Source: Salsipaludibacter albus (GTDB lineage Bacteria; Actinomycetota; Nitriliruptoria; Nitriliruptorales; Nitriliruptoraceae). Taken from it: a stretch of 64,000 bases of DNA. The translations under genes were made by a program, and so were the position numbers. The stretch spans positions 62,001 to 126,000 of the forward strand of contig NZ_JAHOPH010000006.1 of NCBI RefSeq assembly GCF_019798055.1, read 5' to 3'. Below the pieces are notes generated by a model. The model worked only from the letters and a program-made list of their open reading frames with translations, was not told the DNA's origin and ran no database searches. This document shows, in pieces, positions 17,424 through 23,676 of this stretch (position 1 is its first letter; each line of letters opens with the position of its first letter).

Positions 17424-18161
17424 TCACCGGCCGACGTCGACCTGGGCCTCGGGCGCCTGCAGGTCGGCGACGACGACGGTGACGTTGTCGGGGCCGCCCC
17501 GTTGCAGCGCGGCCTCGACCAGCGCCCGGACCGCCTTGGCGGGTTCGGGGTGGTCACGAAGTGCGGCCGCCACGACCGTTGGCTCCACCACGTCGGTGAG
17601 CCCGTCGGACGCCAGCAGGAGTCGGCCCGGGCCGGTCAGTTCCAGCACGTGTGCGTCGAGGTGATCGGCCTCGGAGGCCCCACCGAGGACCTGGGTGATC
17701 CAGCCGCCCTCGCTGCGATCCCGAGGGACGACGTCCACCAGGTCGTCGGTCCACCACAGGGCGGCCGAGTCCCCGATGCCGATCACCAGCGCGGTCGCCG
17801 GGTCGAGCAGGGAGGCGGCGGCGAGCGTGGTGCCCATCCCGGTCGTCTCCGGATGGTCCCGCATGTGGGCGAGCAGGCGCCGCTGCATCGTGGCGACCAG
17901 GTCGGCGACGGCGTCCCGGTCGACGGGCAGGTCCGCCCCGGCGACCACCTCGGCCACCAGCCGCGACGCGACGTCCCCGGCCGGGTGCCCGCCCATCCCG
18001 TCCAGGACCGCCAGCATCGCGGGGCTGGCGAGTTCGTCGGTGGCCTCGTCGTGGTCACCCGTCACCAGCGTGGTGCCCACCACCGCGTGGTCCTCGTTGC
18101 GGCGGCGGACGTGGCCCACGTCGGTGGCGGCGGCGACCGCGGTCGTCGGCTGGGCCGGCAT
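17424..18161 (-). CDS. PP2C-type serine/threonine protein phosphatase
   Basis: A 245-residue soluble Mn/Mg-dependent phosphatase. The metal-binding motifs are present in order: GHVRRRNEDH, LAVLDGMGGHPAGDVAS, IGDSAALWW, LLLASDGLTDVV and GGPDNVTVVV. The ATG at 18161 gives the usual N-terminus, whereas the extended start at 18272 adds non-conserved residues. No kinase gene is adjacent, so its partner is elsewhere. It follows the SerA-SerK fusion on the same strand after 147 nt. Confidence 0.92.
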   Translation of the reverse strand: MPAQPTTAVAAATDVGHVRRRNEDHAVVGTTLVTGDHDEATDELASPAMLAVLDGMGGHPAGDVASRLVAEVVAGADLPVDRDAVADLVATMQRRLLAHMRDHPETTGMGTTLAAASLLDPATALVIGIGDSAALWWTDDLVDVVPRDRSEGGWITQVLGGASEADHLDAHVLELTGPGRLLLASDGLTDVVEPTVVAAALRDHPEPAKAVRALVEAALQRGGPDNVTVVVADLQAPEAQVDVGR

Positions 18162-18308
18162 CGGCAGATCCTTCGGGTCGGGAGTTCCACCGTAGGAACC
18201 GGACGGGGTCGTCGACAGCGCCCGACCGGCCAACCGACCACACGGACACCCCGCGTCCCGCCCAGCGGGCATCCACGGGGAACCCCGACCGCACGGTGGC
18301 GGCCCGGC

Positions 18309-20105
18309 TCACTCGTCGAGGAGGTAGACCGGCTCGCGGTAGTAGCGGATCGTGCCGGCGAGGTGGCGCCGTCGCAGCCGCTCGTGCAGGTCACGGTTCT
18401 TGTCCTCGACCGACCGGTCGTTGCGGAGCCACGACAACGGCAGGTCGAGGTGCAGCACCCGGCCGGGCACGACGAAGCGGGTGACGCCGGCCGGCAGCAA
18501 CTGGCCCGAGCGGGCCGCCAGCAACACCTGCTCGACCGTGAAGGGGGGATACACGACCAGCATCTCGAGCTCGGGATAGTCCACCCGCACCGTGTCCAGG
18601 TCGCGCTCCATCGTGCGGGTCACCTCGGCGGCCTCCCCGTAGGCACGCATGGTGGCCTCGGCCGCCGCGAACCGGTTCAGCCCGGGCTCGGCGATGACCA
18701 CGGCCGCGCGACCGTCGGGTGACAGCAGGGCGCAGACCCCGCCCAGCTCCAGCAGTCGATCCCGGGCCACGGCCAGGTCGCAGGTCACCAGCGACAGCCC
18801 GTCGACCGTGCCCAGCGCCTCGGTGACCACGCCCCAGTCCCCGCCCGTGAGGACGTGGCTCCAGGTCTCCAGCGCGAGGTCGTCGTCGACGTCGACGACC
18901 TGGACGACGATGTGGGGATGCCCGGCCCGGCGCAGCGCCTCGGACCGCGTGGCGCCGTCCAGCACCACGAACTGGTCGTCGACCCGGGTCACGATCGGCG
19001 GGTTGCGCAGGATCGCCTCGTCGTCCAGGCGACCCGCCAGCTCCTCGACCCGTCGCGGGTCGTGTGCCTCGTGTGGCGTGAGCCGTTCCACCTCCACGAC
19101 CCGCAGGGGCAGCACCGTCCGGGGGTCTGCGTCGGCCAGCAGGTCGACCACCTGGTCGGCGACGTCGTTGGCGGCCGCCTCCTGGGCATCGACGGTCGAC
19201 GCACCCAGGTGGGGTGTCGCCACCACCCGGTCGTGGCGGGCGAGGCGTGAGTCGACCGCAGGCTCCTCGGCGAACACGTCCAGGGCGGCCCCGGCGATGG
19301 ACCCGTCGTCCAGTGCAGCCATGAGCGCGGCCTCGTCGACGACCGAGCCGCGCGACGTGTTGATCAGCCACGCGGTCGACTTCATCCGGGCGAGGAAGTC
19401 GGCGTCGACCAGGCCGACGGTCTCGTCGGTGGCCGGGACGTGCAGGGTCACGAAGTCGGCCCGGTCGAGCACGTCATCCAGGTCGAGCGCCTCGACCCCG
19501 GCCTCCAACTCCAGCTCGGGGGTGGACCGACGCTGGTTGGCGACGACCTTCATGCCGAACGCCGCCGCCCGGTGCGCGACCGCCCGGCCGATCCGGCCGA
19601 ATCCCACGATGCCGAGGGTCTTGCCGGCGATCCCGGTGCCCAGCAGGGCCTTCTTCTCCCAGCGCCCCTCCTTGAGGGCCGCATCCGCCCGCGGGACGTT
19701 GCGGGCCAGCGACAGGATCAGTGCCAGGGTCAGCTCGGCGACCGCGATCGTGTTGGCGTCGGGGCTGTTGACCACGTGGATGCCCGAGGCGAGCGCGGCC
19801 TCGACGTCGATCGTGTCCAGTCCGGCGCCGGCCCGCGCGATGACGGCGAGGTTGGTCGCCCGGTCGAGCACCTCGGCCGGCAGCCTGGTGGCGCTGCGCA
19901 CGACGATCGCCTCGTAGTCGGCGATGGTCTCGCGCAGCTCGTCCGGCGACTGGTCGGTGCGCACGTCGACGTCGAAGTGCTCGGACAGCCGGTCGACGCC
20001 GCTGTCGGCGATGGCGTCGGCCACCAGGACGCGCGGGCGCCGATTGGGTCCGTCGGGCTGATGGGGCGCGGCAGTCACCAGGTCACGTCTCGAGGTCGCG
20101 GACAC
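18309..20105 (-). CDS. serA: D-3-phosphoglycerate dehydrogenase fused to a SerK/SbnI-like serine kinase domain
   Basis: A 598-residue fusion. Residues 24-335 are a SerA-type dehydrogenase oxidising 3-phosphoglycerate. They show the NAD motif GFGRIG (168-173) and the catalytic Arg252 (SRGSVV), Glu281 (FAEEP) and His299 (TPHLGAS). The usual SerA C-terminal substrate-binding and ACT domains are absent. Instead, residues 334-598 resemble the ParB-fold free-serine kinases SerK and SbnI: LTPHEAHDP (Glu346 aligns with the catalytic Glu in my recollection of SerK), VVLDGATRSEALRRAG (Asp383, where SerK has DGHHR), and the late LLPAGVTRFVVPGRVLHLDLPL block. The frame is continuous, so the fusion is real in this sequence. 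The GTG at 20105 has a weak ribosome site; a GTG at 20078 is possible. Kinase activity is inferred. Confidence 0.85.
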   Translation of the reverse strand: MSATSRRDLVTAAPHQPDGPNRRPRVLVADAIADSGVDRLSEHFDVDVRTDQSPDELRETIADYEAIVVRSATRLPAEVLDRATNLAVIARAGAGLDTIDVEAALASGIHVVNSPDANTIAVAELTLALILSLARNVPRADAALKEGRWEKKALLGTGIAGKTLGIVGFGRIGRAVAHRAAAFGMKVVANQRRSTPELELEAGVEALDLDDVLDRADFVTLHVPATDETVGLVDADFLARMKSTAWLINTSRGSVVDEAALMAALDDGSIAGAALDVFAEEPAVDSRLARHDRVVATPHLGASTVDAQEAAANDVADQVVDLLADADPRTVLPLRVVEVERLTPHEAHDPRRVEELAGRLDDEAILRNPPIVTRVDDQFVVLDGATRSEALRRAGHPHIVVQVVDVDDDLALETWSHVLTGGDWGVVTEALGTVDGLSLVTCDLAVARDRLLELGGVCALLSPDGRAAVVIAEPGLNRFAAAEATMRAYGEAAEVTRTMERDLDTVRVDYPELEMLVVYPPFTVEQVLLAARSGQLLPAGVTRFVVPGRVLHLDLPLSWLRNDRSVEDKNRDLHERLRRRHLAGTIRYYREPVYLLDE

Positions 20106-20175: not shown

Positions 20176-23100
20176 TCACCGGGCGAACAACGACCGCAGT
20201 TCTCCGGCGACCCACGCGACGAGGTCGTCCGGCGCCGGGGACGGCACCGGGATCTCCACCCGCTCCCCCGACACCGAGGCGTGGCGATGGCGTCGGTGCA
20301 GCCGGACCTGCTGGGAGTCGGCCAGGGTGACGGGCGAGATCCGCAGGAGCGGCTTGCGCCCCCCGGCTCGCGCCACCGCCACCTCGGTGACCCCCCAGCG
20401 CCGCATCGCCGCCCGCAGCGCCGCCAGGGTCAGGACCCGCTGTGCCGCGGCGGGCAGGGGCCCGTAGCGGTCGCGCAGTTCGTCGGTCAGGGACTTCACG
20501 CCGGCCGCGTCCCGGATGGCGGCGATCCGCTTGTACAGGTCGAGGCGCTGGTGGTCGTCGGGGACGTAGTCCGCCGGGAGGGTGGCGTCGACCGGCAGGT
20601 CCAGGGTGATCTCGACCTCCTCCTCGACCGTCTCGCCCGTGAGGTCCGCGACCTCCTCCTTGAGCAGCTCGGTGTACATGTCGAAGCCGACGGCAGCGAC
20701 GTGGCCGGACTGCTCGGACCCGACGACGTTGCCGGCGCCCCGGATCTCGAGGTCCCGCATGGCGATCGACAGTCCGGACCCCAGCCGGGTGTGCTCGGCG
20801 ATGGTCTTGAGTCGTTCGTAGGCCGGCTCGGTGATGGAGGTGCCCTCGGGATACAGGAAGTAGGCGTACCCACGGGTCGCCGAGCGACCGACCCGCCCAC
20901 GCAGCTGGTGCAGCTGGCCCAGGCCCAGCATGTCCGCGCGCTCGATGATCAGCGTGTTGGCGTTGGGGATGTCCAGGCCGGACTCGATGATGGTCGTGCA
21001 CACGAGCACGTCGTACTCGCGCTCCCAGAACTTGACCATCACCTCCTCCAGGGCACGCTCGTCCATCTGTCCGTGTGCGACCGCGACCCGGGCGTCGGGC
21101 ACCAGCTCGCGGAGGTGGTCGGCGGCCGTGTGGATCGTGTTGACCTGGTTGTGGAGGTAGAAGACCTGGCCGTCGCGCAACAGCTCGCGCCGGACGGCCA
21201 GGGTGACCTGGCCCTCGTCCCACGGCTGCACCAGGGTCGTGATCGGCTGGCGCTCCTCCGGCGGGGTCTCGATCACCGACAGGTCGCGGATGCCCGCGAC
21301 CGCCATCTCCAGCGTCCGCGGGATCGGGGTCGCCGACATGCTCAGCACGTCGACCGAGGTCCGCAGCTGCTTGAGCCGCTCCTTCTGGGTCACGCCGAAG
21401 CGCTGCTCCTCGTCCACCACGACCAGCCCGAGGCGCTTCCACTCCACCTCCTTCGACAACAGCGCATGCGTGCCGATCACCAGGTCGACGGTGCCGGCCG
21501 CGACCCCGTCGAGCACCTCGCGTCGCTCGGCGTCGGTGATGAACCGCGACAGCATCGCGACGTTGACCGGGAAGCCGGCGAAGCGCTCGCGGAAGGTCTC
21601 GAAGTGCTGCTGGGCGAGGATCGTGGTGGGCACGAGGACGGCGACCTGGGAGCCGTCGAAGATCGCCTTGGCGGCAGCGCGCACCGCCACCTCGGTCTTG
21701 CCGAACCCGACGTCGCCAGCCAGGATCCGGTCCATCGGCAGCGGTGCCTCCATGTCCTGCTTGATCTCGTCGATGACGGTGACCTGGTCGACGGTCTCGA
21801 CGTGGGCGAACGCGTCCTCGAGCTCGCGCTGCATCGCGCCGTCCGGCGCGAACGCGGTCCCGGCGGCGTGCATCCGGGCGGCGTAGAGGCGGATCAGCTC
21901 ACCGGCGATGTCGCGGACGGCGCCGCGCACGCGGTTCTTGGCCTTCTCCCACTGCGCCCCGCCCAGTCGCATCGGGCGCGGCGTGTCGCCACCCTGGTAG
22001 CGGGCGATCGCGTCGACCTGGTCCGACGGGATGTACAGCGCATCGCCCTTGGCGTACTGCACCACCACGTAGTCCCGGGTGACCTCGCGTCCGTCGACCC
22101 CGTTGTAGCTGCGCGTCACCAGCCCCTGGAACGTCCCGACCCCGTGGGTGCGGTGCACGACGGCGTCACCGGCCTCCAGCCCCGCCACCGTGTCCAGGGC
22201 CTTGCCGCGGGCACCCAGGCGCCGGCCGGCGCGCCGGGTCCGGCGGGGACCGAACAGGTCCCACTCCCCCAGCACGACCAGCCCGAGCTGCTCGGAGCTG
22301 AACCCGCGTCGCAGCGGGGACGGGGTGAGGGCGACCCGGGTCTCGACCGCGTCGGGCGGGACGCCGTCCGGGTGCAGCCGGGCCGGCACGCCCGCCTGGC
22401 CCAGCACGTCGGACAGGCGACGGACCGGACCGAGCCCGGCCGTCGAGGCCGCCACGCGCAGGCCCTGGGCCATCCAGTCCCGGGTGCGCGCCGCGATGGC
22501 GTCGACGTCGCCCTTGAACGAGTCCAGCGCCATGCCCGGCAGGCGCGTCGCCCCGAACGCCGGCAGGTCCCAACGGCGCCCGGACACCCGTTCCAGCATC
22601 TGTTCCATGGACGCGAACCCGGCAGAGCCGAACCGGGTCATGCCCTCGGGCAGGTCCCACGCGACCTCGGCCAGGACCTCGGCCTCGTCGATCACCTTGG
22701 CGGCCCGGTCGCCCACCAGCATCGGGTCGGCGATCGCCACGCCCGCCCCGTCCGGGAGGAAGTCCGGCAGCAGGTGCGGGTCGTGGTGCAGCAACGTCAC
22801 CAGCGACTCGGCGCCCTCGAAGGCGACGCCGTCGGCGAGCTGCTCCAGTGACCCGGCCAGCGAGGGCAGCGTCACCGCCAGCCGGCCGGCGCGCTCGCGC
22901 AGGTCGTCGTCGATGACCAGTTCGCGGGCCGGATCGACCGTGACCTCCTCGATCTCCTCGACGGAGCGCTGGTCACTGATCCCGAAGGTGCGCAACTCCT
23001 CGATGTCGTCACCGAAGAACTCGACCCGGATGGCCATGTCGTCGTTGGTCGGGAACACGTCGACGATCCCGCCGCGGACGGCGAACTCGCCGCGCTGGGT

Positions 23101-23676
23101 GACCTGGGTCGTGCGGGCGTAGCCCAGCCGGACGAGTTGCTCGGCCAGGCCGTCCAGCCCGTCGGCGAAGTGCCGGGACAGGTGCAGCGGCCGCCGGCTC
23201 GCGAGCCGCGGGTCCATGGGCTGGAGCACGGCCCGGATCGGGGCGACCACCGCGGCGAGCGGGCGGGCGGACCCGTCGGCCGCCGCCACCAGCCGGTCCA
23301 GCACGTGCAGCCTCGCCCCGACGGTGGCCGGCTGCGGGGACAGGCGCTCGTGCGGCAGGGTCTCCCACGACGGGAAGAGGGCCACCACGTCCTCGCCGAG
23401 GTAGGCGCCCATCGCGTCGACGAGCTCCTCGGCGTCGGAGGTGCGCGGCGTGACGACCAGCAGCGGCGTCGCCTGCTCGGCCAGCAGGCTGAGCCAGTAG
23501 CCCCGGGCGGGCTCGGCCGGCGCCACCACGTCGTCGAGGAACGCATCGGCAGCCAAGGCACGTCCGGCCCGCAGCAGGCTCGCCAGCGGGCCGTGCGCCA
23601 GCCCGGGGTCGTCCACGTCCTCGATGGAGCGTGGACGGGCGGCCGCAGCCGGCGACGGGGTGGGGACATCCGTCAT
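20176..23676 (-). CDS. mfd: Transcription-repair coupling factor Mfd
   Basis: A 1166-residue ATP-driven DNA translocase that removes stalled RNA polymerase and recruits UvrA. The order is canonical: a UvrB-like N-terminal part, the RNAP-interaction region (GDAVVHRTHGVGTFQGL ... YVVVQYAKGDALYIPSDQ), and a RecG-like motor with Walker A GDVGFGKTEVA near residue 653 and the DEEQRFG box near 753. Motor motif VI lies in QLRGRVGRSATRGYAY, and a C-terminal D7 domain follows. Length matches the family. It lies 70 nt upstream of the serA fusion on the same strand, beyond the rplY-pth-DUF4191 unit and its hairpin. Confidence 0.97.
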   Translation of the reverse strand: MTDVPTPSPAAAARPRSIEDVDDPGLAHGPLASLLRAGRALAADAFLDDVVAPAEPARGYWLSLLAEQATPLLVVTPRTSDAEELVDAMGAYLGEDVVALFPSWETLPHERLSPQPATVGARLHVLDRLVAAADGSARPLAAVVAPIRAVLQPMDPRLASRRPLHLSRHFADGLDGLAEQLVRLGYARTTQVTQRGEFAVRGGIVDVFPTNDDMAIRVEFFGDDIEELRTFGISDQRSVEEIEEVTVDPARELVIDDDLRERAGRLAVTLPSLAGSLEQLADGVAFEGAESLVTLLHHDPHLLPDFLPDGAGVAIADPMLVGDRAAKVIDEAEVLAEVAWDLPEGMTRFGSAGFASMEQMLERVSGRRWDLPAFGATRLPGMALDSFKGDVDAIAARTRDWMAQGLRVAASTAGLGPVRRLSDVLGQAGVPARLHPDGVPPDAVETRVALTPSPLRRGFSSEQLGLVVLGEWDLFGPRRTRRAGRRLGARGKALDTVAGLEAGDAVVHRTHGVGTFQGLVTRSYNGVDGREVTRDYVVVQYAKGDALYIPSDQVDAIARYQGGDTPRPMRLGGAQWEKAKNRVRGAVRDIAGELIRLYAARMHAAGTAFAPDGAMQRELEDAFAHVETVDQVTVIDEIKQDMEAPLPMDRILAGDVGFGKTEVAVRAAAKAIFDGSQVAVLVPTTILAQQHFETFRERFAGFPVNVAMLSRFITDAERREVLDGVAAGTVDLVIGTHALLSKEVEWKRLGLVVVDEEQRFGVTQKERLKQLRTSVDVLSMSATPIPRTLEMAVAGIRDLSVIETPPEERQPITTLVQPWDEGQVTLAVRRELLRDGQVFYLHNQVNTIHTAADHLRELVPDARVAVAHGQMDERALEEVMVKFWEREYDVLVCTTIIESGLDIPNANTLIIERADMLGLGQLHQLRGRVGRSATRGYAYFLYPEGTSITEPAYERLKTIAEHTRLGSGLSIAMRDLEIRGAGNVVGSEQSGHVAAVGFDMYTELLKEEVADLTGETVEEEVEITLDLPVDATLPADYVPDDHQRLDLYKRIAAIRDAAGVKSLTDELRDRYGPLPAAAQRVLTLAALRAAMRRWGVTEVAVARAGGRKPLLRISPVTLADSQQVRLHRRHRHASVSGERVEIPVPSPAPDDLVAWVAGELRSLFAR

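Follow-up and report, generated by a model that had tools for sequence, protein, structure and literature searches.

What does a protein do that carries a 3-phosphoglycerate dehydrogenase (SerA) core at one end and a domain related to free-serine kinases at the other? The question is raised by a gene in a 64,000-nucleotide stretch of Salsipaludibacter albus DNA (the window; Table 1). The first-pass annotation had described a continuous 598-codon frame without giving a strand. The frame is present on the minus strand, and stops interrupt the plus strand over the same interval. The G+C content of the gene is 72.5% (GC3 94%). Its base composition and codon use resemble those of the neighbouring, resident genes and it lies well within a contig of 182 kb, which rules out contamination or recent transfer as an artefact; the genome is 4.25 Mb in size and 97% complete. 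Nor can the gene be explained by a chance join or a frameshift, because the same architecture was found in dozens of genomes. No tie to serine metabolism was seen for the adjacent PP2C-type phosphatase gene.

Table 1 Features at the fusion locus (window coordinates)
Feature	Position	Strand	Basis or remark
Whole fusion gene	18309..20105	minus	598 codons, GTG start at 20105; open frame; architecture shared by 35 relatives
SerA (3-phosphoglycerate dehydrogenase) core, residues 25-325	19131..20033	minus	TIGR01327 and PDB matches, residue tables
SbnI/SerK-type free-serine-kinase domain, residues 334-598	18309..19106	minus	NF033589 and PDB matches, AF2 model, Foldseek
LDGATR block (residues 382-387; VDGHHR in SerK)	18945..18962	minus	Alignment
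mfd	20176-23676	minus	Neighbour of fusion gene
PP2C-type phosphatase gene	17424-18272	minus	Directly downstream of fusion, 36 bp gap

The two halves of the protein

The model TIGR01327 matches residues 25-333 with an E-value of 1e-108, and human PHGDH matches this SerA half with an E-value of about 1e-76. The Arg/Glu/His triad of the 2-hydroxyacid dehydrogenases is present as R252, E281 and H299, exactly as first annotated. R70, R91 and R135, whose counterparts bind the phosphate in human PHGDH, are kept in the fused SerA as in the canonical SerA of the same genome (L002). The TIGR01327 match covers only model positions 1-311 of 525, and this search placed no ASB or ACT domain of the type I 3-phosphoglycerate dehydrogenases in the fusion; the regulatory domains are indeed gone, as had been proposed.

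The cofactor loop departs from that of the canonical enzymes. In canonical SerAs with a readable loop, the genome's own copy included, the second strand of the cofactor domain ends in Y/H/F-D-P. The window protein has NQRR where NAD-type SerA has YDP, and all fusions have [NH]-Q at the loop, the next residues being mostly P/R and R. The conserved NAD Asp of the betaB-alphaD loop is absent from the window SerA half and from all fusions, Gln191 standing in its place in 36/36 (window counted). SerA enzymes use NAD and have a conserved Asp in the cofactor loop, and an NADPH preference has been suggested for subfamilies that lack it (2HADH survey, PMC6303947). The Gln in this one loop suggests that the fused SerA would prefer NADPH and hence would work as a reductase in vivo.

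The C-terminal domain matches the SbnI model NF033589 with E 3e-24 (85.6 bits) and the SerK model with 5e-10 (38.9 bits). The NCBIfam equivalog cut-offs are 350 and 380 bits, respectively; the domain is a homologue that lies outside both named equivalogs. SbnI crystal sequences were matched at E 1e-17 without a family profile, and a 68-sequence family profile gave 5e-53 for SbnI structures and 1e-15 for SerK. An AlphaFold2 model of the domain, computed from an alignment of the window and related loci, has a pLDDT of 94.7. Its best nine Foldseek matches are all SbnI or SerK (TM 0.67-0.81; 1vk1, a Pyrococcus SerK homologue, is included), and the ParB and sulfiredoxin (Srx) matches were confined to about 80 columns. 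Structure prediction thus upholds the ParB/SerK fold assigned to this half, as a full-length SbnI/SerK match. The HTH and C-terminal dimerisation domain of the ParB CTPase clamp were looked for and not found, the region giving just a sub-cut-off ParB_N match.

In the family profile alignment Glu346 is aligned with SerK Glu30 and Asp383 with SerK Asp69. PDB titles for SerK include E30A and E30Q mutants, identifying Glu30 as the residue targeted for activity loss. The motifs H345-E346, D383-G-A-T-R387, P538-A-G-V-T-R543 and R587..E591 are observed; the domain keeps the catalytic Glu and the DG..R and P.GxTR blocks, in support of the SerK match first proposed. The further suggestion that DGATR points to altered chemistry is weak. 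The His of DGxHR is missing (Thr386), but the position is not conserved across the wider family: SbnI, SerK and the Rubrobacteraceae proteins have His there, as do most Bacilli homologues, whereas stand-alone Chloroflexota homologues mostly have Asn and 36/36 fusions have Thr. Thr386 is therefore a conserved feature of the clade, neither a degenerate residue nor a universal one. ATP is the reported phosphate donor of SbnI; any donor assigned to the fused domain is putative. For the ParB-type fold nucleotide choice is not reliably predicted by sequence, and an archaeal SerK-like protein bound CTP (2025 survey, PMC12704722).

Distribution, descent and decay

The family recurs, with 35 relatives beyond the window in 34/298 genomes of one Chloroflexota class (the class of G515). 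Twenty-six are two-domain SerA-kinase fusions and nine carry an added Ser/Thr-dehydratase-like PLP domain. Fusions were called by open-frame length, and by sequence in extracted loci; the two-domain proteins are about 577-673 aa long, a single 1015-codon frame being an over-long open frame. The kinase-like domain occurs in 126/298 genomes of this class and in 30/400 genomes from the phylum to which an Anaerolineales record belongs (Chloroflexota). Within the window's own class a convincing match was obtained in 1/66 genomes, the window genome itself. The fusion was not found in a congener genome (87% complete), and the SbnI model detected no other fusion in 396 genomes of the window's phylum. 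The same search found stand-alone SbnI/SerK homologues to be near-universal in Rubrobacteraceae; there the gene (L008-L037, L050-L057; DGAHR) usually sits just before purA-purD. A single protein query gave no match in viral contigs. Scanning contigs with the pattern [YFH]LVLDGAHR returned stand-alone homologues only; the pattern is blind to DGATR by construction, and the fusions were therefore found by whole-genome searches.

In a tree of the C-terminal domain the window protein groups with the fusions in a single clade (98/91; 100/96 with a smaller set), which also takes in two rows with short or contig-cut frames. In the SerA tree the fused domains, window included, form one clade (100/99) together with one stand-alone protein; the canonical SerAs that these genomes also encode, and the canonical copy of the window genome, fall outside it. 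In both trees the window protein lies within the fusion clade, so the two halves have a common history. The window gene is a member of this fusion family, acquired probably by an old transfer, likely from Chloroflexota-like donors; its branch is long, and its exact place in the C-domain tree is unsure. We note that the stand-alone member of the Gln-loop clade (L213:6942-7871, genome G992) is a 309-aa SerA, and that the fusion of the same genome has a dead SerA.

The SerA triad is intact in 22/36 fusions and broken in 14/36 (window counted). In the broken triads Arg252 is changed to His, Lys, Pro, Tyr or Ser, and Glu281 is replaced in 13/14. These 14 cannot be 3-phosphoglycerate dehydrogenases because the site is dead; fusion genes may carry SerA or ParB-like labels, and the present assignment corrects such annotation. 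Mapped on the tree, the dead state requires four steps (4-4 over bootstraps); well supported branches force at least three of them. Residues H345, E346, D383-R387, Q402, W415, H417, R497, P538, G540, T542, R543, R549, R587, Y589 and E591 of the kinase-like half are identical in 36/36. Mean identity among dead fusions is 47% in SerA versus 56% in the C-terminal domain; among intact fusions it is 61% versus 44%.

These observations bear on the alternative, already raised for serine by the first-pass annotation, that the C-terminal domain senses serine and nucleotide allosterically, having replaced ASB/ACT, and carries out no turnover. It has some appeal, in that a serine-binding fold stands where the usual regulatory domains are missing and ParB-type folds are often nucleotide switches (PMC12704722). 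However, the 14 fusions that lost their SerA catalytic residues, in about four separate losses, kept every kinase-site residue, and a sensor would be pointless on an enzyme that is dead. Members of the family are also found as stand-alone proteins. We consider a pure sensor quite unlikely; the repeated loss of one site beside invariant residues in the other argues that the C-terminal domain has an enzymatic role of its own. One half decaying repeatedly while the other stays intact makes it directly testable which domain selection keeps.

Dead SerA copies still have the cofactor glycines and Gln191, and binding of the cofactor may continue to matter in them. The PLP-domain fusions are 910-938 aa long, one of the nine being cut by a contig end. 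Their added domain stands in front of the SerA domain and is matched best by models for threo-3-hydroxyaspartate ammonia-lyase and threonine/serine dehydratase, and KFRGA, SSGNHAQG and GGGGL are found in all eight complete members. An intact-looking PLP domain, a broken SerA site and an intact kinase domain are combined in L128, L181, L189-L191 and L193-L195; in these three-domain proteins a dead dehydrogenase carries two heads that may both act on serine.

A proposed route from serine to 3-phosphoglycerate, and the competing readings

On balance we lean, by a little, towards a two-headed serine-assimilation enzyme on a route from serine through phosphoserine and phosphohydroxypyruvate to 3-phosphoglycerate. 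The C-terminal domain would phosphorylate free L-serine to O-phospho-L-serine. A phosphoserine aminotransferase, SerC here and an adjacent class V aminotransferase in some relatives, would then remove the amino group. The SerA half has no domains for feedback by serine; with NADPH as its probable cofactor, it would reduce 3-phosphohydroxypyruvate to 3-phosphoglycerate. The net effect would be to bring serine carbon into glycolysis/gluconeogenesis by running the phosphorylated pathway backwards. SerK phosphorylates free serine in Thermococcus kodakarensis, in which loss of serK or serA lowers yield slightly and the same route through SerK, an aminotransferase and SerA has been proposed (Makino and colleagues, PMC5120207). 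Fused end enzymes whose middle partner is encoded nearby in some bacteria are what the Thermococcus proposal predicts, and serine assimilation is favoured for that reason. The "short circuit" between serine and phosphoserine suggested earlier is better described as an assimilation route whose aminotransferase step belongs to another enzyme.

The gene neighbourhoods speak on both sides. A class V aminotransferase gene lies directly upstream of the fusion, on the same strand and at 3-137 bp, in 6 loci. Two loci (L168:5494-9412 and L192:3083-7040) have an aminotransferase, a separate short Asp-type SerA without ASB/ACT and then a dead-SerA fusion; in both gene rows an active-looking SerA thus accompanies the dead fused dehydrogenase. 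A glycine-dehydrogenase-like gene, identified by eye, is located just upstream in L192. Against serine assimilation, most two-domain fusion loci have no adjacent aminotransferase, and neither does the window fusion between mfd and the PP2C-type gene. The fusion also skips the middle enzyme, which leaves direct channelling between the heads unexplained.

The upstream aminotransferase is closest to aspartate-glyoxylate and PhnW-like models, phosphoserine transaminase being a weaker match. This would suit a different pathway, in which a serine:glyoxylate-type aminotransferase is followed by an NADPH hydroxypyruvate reductase (the N-terminal domain) and a glycerate kinase (the C-terminal domain); such consecutive steps would explain a fusion, and the Gln loop fits. 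The fused SerA nevertheless clusters with 3-phosphoglycerate dehydrogenase, and Arg 70, 91 and 135, the presumed phosphate ligands, are kept in 20-21 of the 22 intact fusions and mostly lost in the dead ones. The characterised relatives of the C-terminal domain act on free serine, and SerK does not accept threonine or homoserine (PMC5120207). The hydroxypyruvate route is in our view very unlikely.

The window genome has separate genes for canonical SerA (L002), SerC (L234; 500 bits against a cut-off of 402) and SerB (L088), so the fusion is not a substitute for serine synthesis. The absence of serB, which had been offered as a check, is thus contradicted and was dropped as an argument. Taken as a whole, the earlier interpretation is partly supported: it keeps its fold, its catalytic blocks and the loss of regulatory domains, loses its point on serB and is weak on DGATR. 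Full-length canonical SerA is encoded elsewhere in nearly all fusion genomes, one locus (L214) having the order HAD phosphatase, aminotransferase, SerA. These genes weigh against the idea that the kinase runs backwards in serine biosynthesis, converting phosphoserine and ADP to serine and ATP in SerB's place. Above-cut-off SerB was found in only 3/38 genomes searched, and rows of aminotransferase and fusion genes do exist. SerB-like HAD matches are, however, located near canonical SerA in several fusion genomes, the window genome has both SerB and canonical SerA, and with ATP the reaction runs uphill, judged by textbook energies of phosphate transfer. We regard a backwards kinase as highly improbable.

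Another reading would have both heads supply O-phosphoserine, from 3-phosphoglycerate via SerC and from serine, to a phosphoserine-using cysteine synthase or a secondary-metabolite pathway. SerK makes O-phosphoserine for cysteine and SbnI makes it for staphyloferrin B. One SbnI homologue shares a plasmid cluster with a cysteine-synthase-family gene, and another belongs to a siderophore cluster, where it follows sbnA/sbnB. The genes that recur beside the fusions, by contrast, include no cysteine synthase, and the Gln loop suggests a reductive rather than an oxidative SerA. Phosphoserine supply is unlikely on these grounds. The plasmid cluster (L049; Macrococcus plasmid NZ_CP079956.1, 5416-12383) appears biosynthetic; besides the SbnI-like and cysteine-synthase-family genes it has 4-hydroxyphenylacetate 3-hydroxylase-like, TIGR00730 (LOG-like), pyrE and dihydroorotate dehydrogenase genes and is flanked by IS elements.

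Returning to serine assimilation, we would extend it to the clade only tentatively, as a fuller picture that falls somewhat short of an even chance. The fusions would pair a free-serine kinase with an NADPH-dependent phosphohydroxypyruvate reductase in a reverse-pathway module from serine to 3-phosphoglycerate. In some lineages the dead dehydrogenase would persist to bind NADP(H), serving the kinase as a scaffold or sensor, and one of these lineages would have added the Ser/Thr-dehydratase-like PLP enzyme.

Relation to known systems

A fusion of 3-phosphoglycerate dehydrogenase with a serine kinase was not mentioned in a full-text search of the main texts of openly available papers. To our knowledge the characterised free-serine kinases number two, SerK and SbnI. 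The main text of the 2025 survey of ParB-fold fusions makes no mention of dehydrogenases (PMC12704722). The route from serine to 3-phosphoglycerate has so far been proposed only in archaea, and the fusion relatives suggest that it extends to bacteria. In Thermococcus the reversed phosphorylated pathway was proposed from small effects on yield. If the assimilation reading is true, the natural joining of its end enzymes, with the middle enzyme encoded alongside in some relatives, would be independent evidence for the reversed route and would place it in bacteria.

Compared with the canonical type I enzyme, exemplified by the genome's own copy, the fused SerA has the catalytic core, the triad and the three arginines in common, whereas the canonical enzyme has ASB and ACT and the loop Asp, and the fused one lacks these domains, has the Gln loop and belongs to a separate clade. 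SbnI of Staphylococcus (NF033589; PDB 5ujd, 5uje and 6nr6) shares the full-length fold and sequence family of the C-terminal domain (Foldseek TM 0.72-0.81), together with HE, DG..R and PAGVTRF. It is, however, a stand-alone protein that serves staphyloferrin B synthesis and has DGVHR, while the fused domain has DGATR and is 24% identical to it in the structural alignment. SerK (Thermococcus TK0378; PDB 5x0b and others) has the same fold (TM 0.74/0.81) and the C-terminal TR block, but is stand-alone, archaeal and ADP-dependent, with about 18% identity to the fused domain. The closest parallel to the arrangement as a whole is found in Desulfurococcales, where serK adjoins 3-phosphoglycerate dehydrogenase and aminotransferase genes (PMC5120207). 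The same set of activities is gathered there as in the fusion family, in separate neighbouring archaeal genes rather than in one bacterial polypeptide.
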